From positions 124,001-188,000 of the forward strand of contig PMTM01000008.1 of the NCBI GenBank assembly GCA_003167365.1: a stretch of 64,000 nt of DNA. Reading direction: 5' to 3'. Shown one piece after another: positions 26,971 through 29,179 of the stretch (within the stretch, counting starts at the first letter, position 1; the number at the start of each line of letters is the position of its first letter). Source of the DNA: Spartobacteria bacterium. Lineage in GTDB: Bacteria; Verrucomicrobiota; Verrucomicrobiia; Chthoniobacterales; UBA10450. The notes under the pieces are model-generated. The model searched no databases, was not told where the DNA came from, and worked only from the letters and a program-made list of their open reading frames with translations. Position numbers and translations under genes: made by a program.

Positions 26971-27453
26971 CTATTCCTGTTCAACGGTCGCGACCGCCAT
27001 TGCTGCCATTCCTTCACCCCGCCCAATTGCATCCATCCCTTCGTTTGTTGTCGCTTTAATGCTGACGGTCGATTCCGATACACCGATTGCCGCAGCAATC
27101 GTTTTTCGCATCGCCGGAATGTGTGGCGCAATCTTGGGCGCTTCGGCGATAAGCGTGGCATCCACGTTCGTGACGCGCGCCTTTTTCTCCGCAAGCAATG
27201 CGCTGGCATACTTCAAGATTTCGATACTGCTAATTCCGCGAATCGATTCGTCCGTGTTCGGAAAATGCTGGCCAATGTCGTCGGCGCCAATCGCGCCAAG
27301 CAGCGCGTCGGCAATCGCGTGTGACAAGACATCGGCATCGGAATGTCCTTCCAGGCCGCGGGAGTGCGCGATCTCGATTCCACCGAGAATCAATTTTCGT
27401 CCCTCCACCAAACGATGCGCGTCGTACCCGATTCCGCTGCGAAAGATCGACAT
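26971..27453 (-). CDS. ispF: 2-C-methyl-D-erythritol 2,4-cyclodiphosphate synthase
   Basis: IspF forms the cyclic diphosphate in the MEP isoprenoid pathway. The 160-residue protein has the zinc-site motif GIGYDAHRL near residue 7, GGIEIAHSRGLEGHSDADVL near residue 24, and the closing signature VSIKATTNEGMDAIGRGEG. The start codon overlaps the suhB-like stop (TGATG). Dxs of the same pathway lies at 11889-13814. Confidence 0.97.
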   Translation of the reverse strand: MSIFRSGIGYDAHRLVEGRKLILGGIEIAHSRGLEGHSDADVLSHAIADALLGAIGADDIGQHFPNTDESIRGISSIEILKYASALLAEKKARVTNVDATLIAEAPKIAPHIPAMRKTIAAAIGVSESTVSIKATTNEGMDAIGRGEGMAAMAVATVEQE

Positions 27454-28199
27454 CAGAGTTTCAAATCGATTACGCCATTGGAGGCGACAATGCTGTATTT
27501 GTCTTTCATGTCCTTGCGTGGTCGCATCTCGACGCTGCCACCGGCCGTTTCAACTAAAATCCAGCCCGCGGCTACGTCCCACAGGCTGATTCCTTGTTCG
27601 ATGTAGGCATCGAAGCGTCCACACGCGACGTAAGCCATATCCAGGGCGGCACTGCCGAGCAAACGGCATTTACGCGCGCGCTGGATCATTTGCTGGAGCA
27701 ACGGCAATCCCGCTTCGATCGTCACTCCAGTCTTCGAAAGACCGACGGAAATAACCGCTTCCTTGAGATCGGCGCGTTCGCTTACGTGGAAATGATTACC
27801 ATTCAAACGCGGAATTTCGCCTTTTTGCGCGGTCCATAATTCCTCGCGGATCGGATCGTAAATAACTCCGACAATGATTTCGCCCTTGAAGCGCAGCGCA
27901 ATCGAAACGCAGAAATGCGGAATGCCGTAGTAATAATTCACGGTGCCATCGAGCGGATCGACCACCCATTGATGCTCGCTCGATTGATCGCCGACAATTC
28001 CTTCTTCGCCGTAAAGCGCGTGCTGCGGAAATTTGTTGAGCAGGAGTTTCGTAATCAAATCCTGCGTTTGCACATCGATCTCGAGCTTGATGTCGTGCGC
28101 CTCGGCCGCGTTGACGCGCAGCGGTCGATGAAAATTCTGCCGAAGTAGATCTCCGGCGGCGCGCGCGGCTTCGACCGCGGCGTCGAGATAATGCATCAT
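27453..28199 (-). CDS. suhB: Inositol-monophosphatase-family protein
   Basis: The 248-residue protein is a lithium-sensitive phosphatase-fold enzyme acting on inositol-1-phosphate or related sugar phosphates. The metal-binding motifs are ALYGEEGIVGD, VVDPLDGTVNYYYGIPHF and the C-terminal ISLWDVAAGWILVETAGG. It is translationally coupled to ispF. The symbol suhB is given for the family; activity on inositol phosphate is not shown by the sequence. Confidence 0.88.
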   Translation of the reverse strand: MMHYLDAAVEAARAAGDLLRQNFHRPLRVNAAEAHDIKLEIDVQTQDLITKLLLNKFPQHALYGEEGIVGDQSSEHQWVVDPLDGTVNYYYGIPHFCVSIALRFKGEIIVGVIYDPIREELWTAQKGEIPRLNGNHFHVSERADLKEAVISVGLSKTGVTIEAGLPLLQQMIQRARKCRLLGSAALDMAYVACGRFDAYIEQGISLWDVAAGWILVETAGGSVEMRPRKDMKDKYSIVASNGVIDLKL

Positions 28200-28281: not shown

Positions 28282-28316
28282 AAAAAAACCGGGAGGAAAA
28301 TAAATTCTCCTCCCGG
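28282..28316 (-). terminator. Rho-independent terminator of the tiny lysine-rich gene
   Basis: Read on the minus strand, a 9 bp perfect GC-rich stem (CCGGGAGGA at 28289-28297 with TCCTCCCGG at 28308-28316) is followed by a run of seven T. It ends transcription coming from 28434, and the stem begins 56 bp after that gene's stop. Confidence 0.85.
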
Positions 28317-28371
28317 GTTGAAGTTGGATTGTGACTCCGAAAGCGTTCGGGGTCGTGATAAGCGCTAAGCG

Positions 28372-28434
28372 TTAGTGCCTTTTTCTTTTGGCTGATTTTT
28401 TCTTAGCTGCTTTTTTCTTTTTCTTAGCTGCCAT
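28372..28434 (-). CDS. Tiny lysine-rich basic protein, 20 residues
   Basis: The ATG at 28434 is preceded at good spacing by a strong ribosome site (AAGGGGGGAAAA). The frame encodes M-A-A, five Lys, A-A, three Lys, S-A, K-R-K-R-H and then a TAA. Sixteen of the 20 residues are Lys, Arg or Ala. A rho-independent terminator lies just downstream, so this is a complete transcription unit despite its size. The composition suggests RNA or DNA binding, as in histone-H1-like tails or tiny ribosomal proteins such as bTHX, but no family can be assigned. Confidence 0.6.
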   Translation of the reverse strand: MAAKKKKKAAKKKSAKRKRH

Positions 28435-28514
28435 CGATTTTCCCCCCTTTCGATCCGCAGACGCGGTGGGTGCGTGAAGATTTTTGAATAGAATTAAACT
28501 TCACTTACAACGAA

Positions 28515-28543
28515 CGAAGTAATCATCACAATTTTTTTGTCAA
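28515..28543 (-). promoter_or_regulatory. Possible promoter of the tiny lysine-rich gene
   Basis: On the minus strand a perfect -35 hexamer TTGACA (28543 to 28538) follows the coaB stop by about 10 bp. The best -10 candidate is TACTTC at 16 bp spacing, which is poor. About 80 bases of leader would precede the start codon. Confidence 0.35.
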
Positions 28544-28552
28544 ACAGTTTTC

Positions 28553-29179
28553 TCAAACATTTTCACAAATCTTTACCAGCTCGCGCGCGATAATTTTCTT
28601 CGGCGCGCGCGAAATTTTCTTCGGGGCGCCGCTTTTAAAGAAGATTGTCACTTCGTTTTCGTCGCTTTCCATTCCGCAATTCGGATCACTCACGTCGTTG
28701 GCCACGATGATGTCGCAATTCTTAGCACGAAGTTTTTTCTTCGCGTTTTCTTCGACGTCATTTGTCTCGGCGGCGAATCCGACGACAAGAAAGTGCCTTT
28801 CTCGTTTTGAAAGCGACGCGAGTATGTCGGACGTCGGAATGAGATCAAGAGACCAATGCTTTTCGTTTTTCTTGATTTTGCGCGCCGAAGCCTTTGCCGG
28901 TTTGTAATCTGCGACCGCGGCGGACATGACCAGCACGTCGCACTCGCGAACAAGCCGATGAACGGCATCGTACATCTCGTCGGCGGTCGAGATCGATGTT
29001 AATTGCACGCCGCGCGGAGGGTCGAGATTTACGGGACCGGAGATCAAAACAACATCATGCCCGGCTTCGATCGCTGCATCCGCGATGGCGTAGCCCATCT
29101 TTCCGGAAGAGCGGTTGCTGATGTAACGAACGGGATCGATGGGTTCGCGCGTCGGTCCGGCCGTGATGACGAATCTCAC
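28553..29179 (-). CDS. coaB: Phosphopantothenate-cysteine ligase (CoaB)
   Basis: CoaB couples 4'-phosphopantothenate to cysteine in CoA synthesis. The 208-residue stand-alone protein has MRFVITAGPTREPIDPVRYI, ISNRSSGKMGYAIADAA, VMSAAVADYKP, and VVGFAAETND with a following Lys-rich stretch, all CTP-binding and catalytic parts of the domain. In most bacteria this domain is fused to CoaC; here the ATG overlaps the coaC stop by 4 bp, so the fusion is split but the two are coupled. Confidence 0.93.
   Translation of the reverse strand: MRFVITAGPTREPIDPVRYISNRSSGKMGYAIADAAIEAGHDVVLISGPVNLDPPRGVQLTSISTADEMYDAVHRLVRECDVLVMSAAVADYKPAKASARKIKKNEKHWSLDLIPTSDILASLSKRERHFLVVGFAAETNDVEENAKKKLRAKNCDIIVANDVSDPNCGMESDENEVTIFFKSGAPKKISRAPKKIIARELVKICENV

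Follow-up and report, generated by a model that had tools for sequence, protein, structure and literature searches.

An overlooked gene for a 20-residue lysine-rich protein: a minimal member of a histone-H1-like family with a conserved place in the Chthoniobacterales

The gap between coaB and suhB in this Spartobacteria bacterium holds a real small gene that had been overlooked, and judged by its relatives the encoded 20-residue protein is no orphan: it is the short end of a histone-H1-like family of 16-99 residues that occupies a conserved locus. We infer its function to be that of a disordered polycation. Selection has preserved the gene in almost all genomes of one soil bacterial family, and proteins of 16-20 residues probably fall below the length limit of the usual gene callers. 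The natural size series found at this locus, from 16 up to 99 residues, also bears on how short a chromosome-acting polycation can be. Nothing relevant was found in the literature on such small proteins in these phyla.

The transcription unit

The DNA analysed here, referred to as the window, is a stretch of 64,000 nucleotides. A preliminary description of it, made from the letters alone, had pointed to a strong ribosome site, a 20-codon frame with 12 basic residues and a terminator in a gap after coaB. Each of these was found in its place, on the minus strand, and the unit sits between coaB and suhB, with both neighbours on the same strand as the peptide gene. The features are as follows.

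28553..29179, minus strand: coaB, the upstream neighbour (protein sequence and synteny)
28538..28543, minus strand: -35-like TTGACA (conserved upstream of the gene in the family)
28474..28504, minus strand: degenerate inverted repeat GTGAAG...CTTCAC (relatives hold a DnaA-box-like site here)
28455..28466, minus strand: leader hairpin CCGC-gtct-GCGG, directly 5' of the Shine-Dalgarno (SD) sequence (stem invariant in 30 aligned relatives)
28442..28451, minus strand: SD sequence GAAAGGGGGG (conserved in relatives)
28372..28434, minus strand: small gene of 20 codons plus stop, encoding MAAKKKKKAAKKKSAKRKRH; ATG at 28434, TAA ending at 28372 (ORF reading and selection on the protein)
28333..28354, minus strand: 3'-UTR stem-loop GACCCCGAACGCTTTCGGAGTC (covariation in relatives)
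28282..28317, minus strand: intrinsic terminator CCCGGGAGGAGAATTTATTTTCCTCCCGG followed by TTTTTTT (terminator scan and conservation)
27453..28199, minus strand: suhB of the inositol-monophosphatase type, the downstream neighbour (protein sequence and synteny)

The basic residues of MAAKKKKKAAKKKSAKRKRH are ten K and two R. According to the terminator scan, a 12-bp stem (28316..28289) is followed by seven T, and four terminator-like sites lie in the region against 0.6 expected from shuffles. The order of the unit is constant, running from the -35 through leader hairpin, SD, frame and covarying hairpin to the terminator, and the interval 28282-28543 spans exactly from the terminator's last T to the -35 hexamer.

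A strict sigma-70 scan of the window region gave no canonical -10, including at 17 nt downstream of TTGACA, and the promoter was therefore placed by the conservation of TTGAC[AG] in relatives, where it stands 93-109 nt 5' of the ATG in 74 of the 76 family loci. The promoter is probable at 28543. Starting from it and ending at the terminator at 28282, the peptide gene would be monocistronic, with an mRNA of about 200-220 nt.

Conservation in the family and selection on the protein

Within the window's family, a pattern of SD, start and Lys codons matched 73 of 83 genomes, while a reversed control matched almost none. Three of the ten misses (L020, L021 and L263) have the gene with a slightly altered SD, which brings its presence to 76 of 83. 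The seven remaining misses are mostly incomplete assemblies (62-80%), and one of them, G180, is 92% complete and gave just a 22-base match. By the same pattern the window's own genome has one such gene, a second match (L072) being without a Lys-rich frame. Peptide size in the family ranges from 16 to 37 residues. The unit is no chance find: a DNA search aligned it with relatives in the family at up to 81% identity, and the match stops at the terminator.

The preliminary description had proposed to look for the same frame after coaB or near suhB in related genomes, and it is found there with conserved synteny. As a sign against its claim it had named a frame that is broken while the terminator stays; every relative read has an open Lys-rich frame with the same SD, and differences in frame length among relatives are whole codons.

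The proposed check of synonymous substitution was also carried out. In the codon alignment of 52 short members, the triplets at Lys positions are AAA, AAG or one for Arg, with Ala also seen at a single position; all four Ala codons are in use at Ala positions, and neither internal stops nor acidic codons occur. For 49 of these members, parsimony on the coaB tree gave 67 synonymous against 25 non-synonymous codon changes, the latter mostly K/R, S/A and S/T with a few others. The base changes at codon positions 1, 2 and 3 number 13, 16 and 72, so that 72 of 101 fall on the third position. Under neutrality 19-27% of changes would be synonymous for these codons (binomial P from 1e-19 to 6e-29); changes counted by parsimony are independent of each other only in rough approximation, but the margin is large. 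Frame-specific conservation, codon-sized indels and the synonymous excess, all marks of protein coding, are thus present. On this substitution pattern the MAAKKKKKAAKKKSAKRKRH frame is a real translated gene under purifying selection on the protein, and the earlier suggestion of a self-contained, missed gene for a small basic protein is supported by the conservation of an SD-preceded Lys-rich frame together with the synonymous excess.

Longer orthologues and wider spread

The gene order in the window's family is gmk-coaC-coaB-[gene]-suhB-ispF, and most other families have gmk-coaC upstream and suhB-ispF downstream of the gene. At the same locus, other families of the Chthoniobacterales (Verrucomicrobiota) encode proteins of 23-99 residues with repeats of the AAKK, APAKK or KPAA type, and a version of 41 residues (L182) occurs in Chthoniobacter flavus Ellin428. 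Because the synteny is shared, we regard the short and long forms as orthologous. Read in this way, the locus encodes a length-variable family, with the protein of the window at its short end. In 108 distinct loci the composition is 43% K, 32% A and 8% P; D or E is seen in just two peptides, and none of the peptides of these loci has an aromatic residue or Cys.

The pattern is strict, and it did not recover the gene from most of the class, nor from some of the order's families. Peptides of 18-22 residues occur in another class of the phylum, and in L128 and L141, from other classes, longer peptides (42 and 92 aa) lie after gmk and before an nrdR-like gene. Records of Vicinamibacteria/Acidobacteria contain K/A peptides of 15-25 residues, with a hairpin 5' of the SD and a terminator-like stem after most frames. 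The pattern used in the scan beyond the order itself selects SD and Lys codons, and the likeness of the acidobacterial mini-genes may follow from this selection and not from common descent. These K/A mini-genes (L167, L171, L207, L218, L232, L233, L252, L256 and L261) are at another locus and have the same GAAAGGGGGGATT-type SD and leader hairpin, and L171 seems to hold a tandem pair. A gammaproteobacterial occurrence (L158, titled Woeseiaceae bacterium EAC2037) was dropped as a probably mislabelled record; the title is doubted because the family search shares G605, G649, G652 and G687 with the class of a genome titled Acidobacteria.

A probable nucleic acid coat, or possibly a ribosomal component

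With moderate confidence, we favour the view that the protein is a minimal histone-H1-like, disordered polycation coating nucleic acid and above all the nucleoid. The 20-residue Lys/Ala/Arg polycation would be the minimal histone-H1-like protein of this locus across the Chthoniobacterales, any length between 16 and 99 residues being tolerated as long as Lys and Ala dominate and acidic residues are nearly absent. The very strong SD, the leader hairpin and the gene's own terminator suggest production in large quantity. The peptide would be disordered and would act through its charge, covering nucleic acid and neutralising it alongside the genome's single HU-type protein. This is the only HU/IHF-type protein of the genome (34728-35102 of the window, plus strand; PF00216, 71 bits), it has a charged C-terminal extension, and about 6 kb separate its gene from that of the peptide. 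HU-type proteins are also small, basic and chromosomal, but they have a folded domain of about 90 residues without similarity to the peptide. Against the preference for the nucleoid, a 20-residue polycation binds DNA no more readily than RNA, ribosomes or polyphosphate.

The main rival is a small basic protein bound to the ribosome or to RNA, filling a groove of the rRNA, which we regard as a serious possibility of clearly lower probability. The proteins eL41, bTHX and bS22 are highly basic, have about 20-40 residues and are of fixed length. The size and charge of the 16-22 residue forms fit such a protein, a strong SD and an own transcript fit a stoichiometric component, and the short forms have a conserved C-terminal KKRH/KRKRH end. 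However, the peptides of the locus vary from 16 to 99 aa by repeat units, unlike those ribosomal proteins, which are non-repetitive. In addition, no sequence match was found among PDB chains at E up to 10, a weak test for a 20-mer, and the gaps that the strict pattern leaves in the order and the class also speak against a ribosomal role. The coat is favoured over the ribosomal component because the length is free while the composition is constant, an argument that is not decisive.

The same freedom of length is known from chlamydial Hc2 (HctB; PF07382) and Bordetella BpH1, likewise Lys/Ala-rich repeat proteins whose length depends on repeat number; in Hc2 the length varies by the number of Lys-rich repeats while the frame is kept (PMC2848022). 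The proteins of this locus share this HC2-type trait of Lys/Ala-rich repeats in variable number, whereas Hc2 itself is far longer, at 165-237 aa. A second parallel is found in the C-terminal KPAA tails of AlgP and PhaF (Pseudomonas), likewise K/P/A repeats; the AlgP tail is disordered and H1-like, and its peptides bind DNA in vitro (PMC9239181). In AlgP and PhaF the tail belongs to a larger protein, whereas here it is the whole protein, encoded by a separate gene. Four long forms were tested against PF07382, of which two stayed below the cut-off of 40 bits (36.7 and 34.7 bits) and the other two gave no match, as did the window's 20-mer; an HC2 profile search of the window's own genome was without a significant match. 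The NCBIfam histone H1-like models NF038052 and NF038053 were weak for all four long forms (best 30.1 bits against 80). Because the profile test failed, membership in the HC2 family is not claimed, and the likeness to HC2 is largely compositional.

RNA structure and less likely explanations

In the alignment of 30 relatives the 3'-UTR hairpin covaries, both partners having changed in seven of its eight pairs while 99.2% of cells are paired, and for the three stems combined 34 cells are changed on both sides against 0-8 when the partners are slid. The stem of the leader hairpin is invariant in these relatives, so covariation is uninformative there; in other classes and phyla, hairpins of other sequence take up this position 5' of GAAAGGGGGG. 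Within the family the terminator stem hardly varies; other families have a stem there too, of different sequence. This anatomy is most simply read as that of an mRNA adapted to be stable and highly translated. It could also be that the RNA is the main product, as a structured small RNA or a dual-function RNA with a secondary frame, and the covarying and invariant hairpins, the near-invariant terminator and the folding score (z = -2.64) are what such an RNA would have. We consider this unlikely, as selection acts on the protein according to the codon-position pattern and the synonymous excess, frames of up to 99 codons are maintained elsewhere, and no Rfam family matched at the gathering or a relaxed threshold.

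Two side observations concern the terminator stem (28317-28289, minus strand): its near-invariance across the family exceeds what a terminator needs, and the letters of its 3' arm, TTTTCCTCCC, are similar to an anti-SD sequence.

A peptide that binds polyphosphate or another polyanion store was considered because of AlgP. The locus proteins share their K/P/A composition with the AlgP tail. This tail is required for the spacing of polyphosphate granules (PMC9239181). With the separate N-terminal domain of AlgP missing and no polyphosphate gene at the locus, we find this explanation more doubtful still than an RNA product. Finally, control of suhB by transcription attenuation, which the short Lys-rich frame with its hairpins and terminator ahead of suhB might suggest, is very improbable, given that the downstream gene is another one in other groups (nrdR-like in L128 and L141), the distance from the gene to suhB is variable, frames reach 99 codons, AAA, AAG and Arg codons are all tolerated where Lys is encoded, and no lysine-related gene lies downstream.

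DnaA-box-like sites at the promoter of relatives

Upstream of the gene, 22 of the 108 distinct loci have TTATNCACA, the DnaA-box consensus. There are 28 such sites, in one orientation throughout and mostly 54-63 and 76-84 nt 5' of the ATG. For comparison, the flanks, 270 kb in all, hold one site, and shuffling gives 0.4 on average. Relatives carry GTGAA(C/G)TTATTCACA, a TTATNCACA site, where the window has its degenerate inverted repeat, and the site scan found no TTATNCACA in the window. In families f7 and f9, a TTATTCACA-N(11-12)-TTATTCACA pair lies at the gene in all six genomes with a match; away from the gene, G130 alone among the six has a further pair, with another spacing. The first box lies 16 nt after TTGACG, at the expected position of the -10, and a weaker third copy, TTCACA, follows.

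A replication origin at the locus was considered for these repeats and rejected on GC skew, which was profiled for part of one long contig (G125) and for the window's contig. In G125 the skew keeps its negative sign to either side of the locus across most of 300 kb, and the window's contig has no clear switch; in G000, dnaA is on a different contig. Because the skew does not switch at the locus, the TTATTCACA repeats are probably an operator rather than an origin.

In relatives with the TTATTCACA promoter, DnaA or another factor that recognises the same site would tie transcription to the state of replication. The window's array has decayed, and its lineage appears to have lost clear sites. 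The full scenario is rather speculative and we hold it only tentatively: a minimal H1-tail protein whose tandem-DnaA-box promoter couples the supply of the coat to replication in several relatives, with the protein shrunk to 16-20 residues and the operator decayed in one soil lineage. If the DnaA-like sites are real, the locus would offer a simple system for the replication-coupled supply of a DNA-coating protein. Tandem TTATTCACA over the promoter was seen in L066, L125 and L286-L291 (f7 and f9) and in L025-L036 of the window's family, and the repeats are nearly absent elsewhere in the loci.
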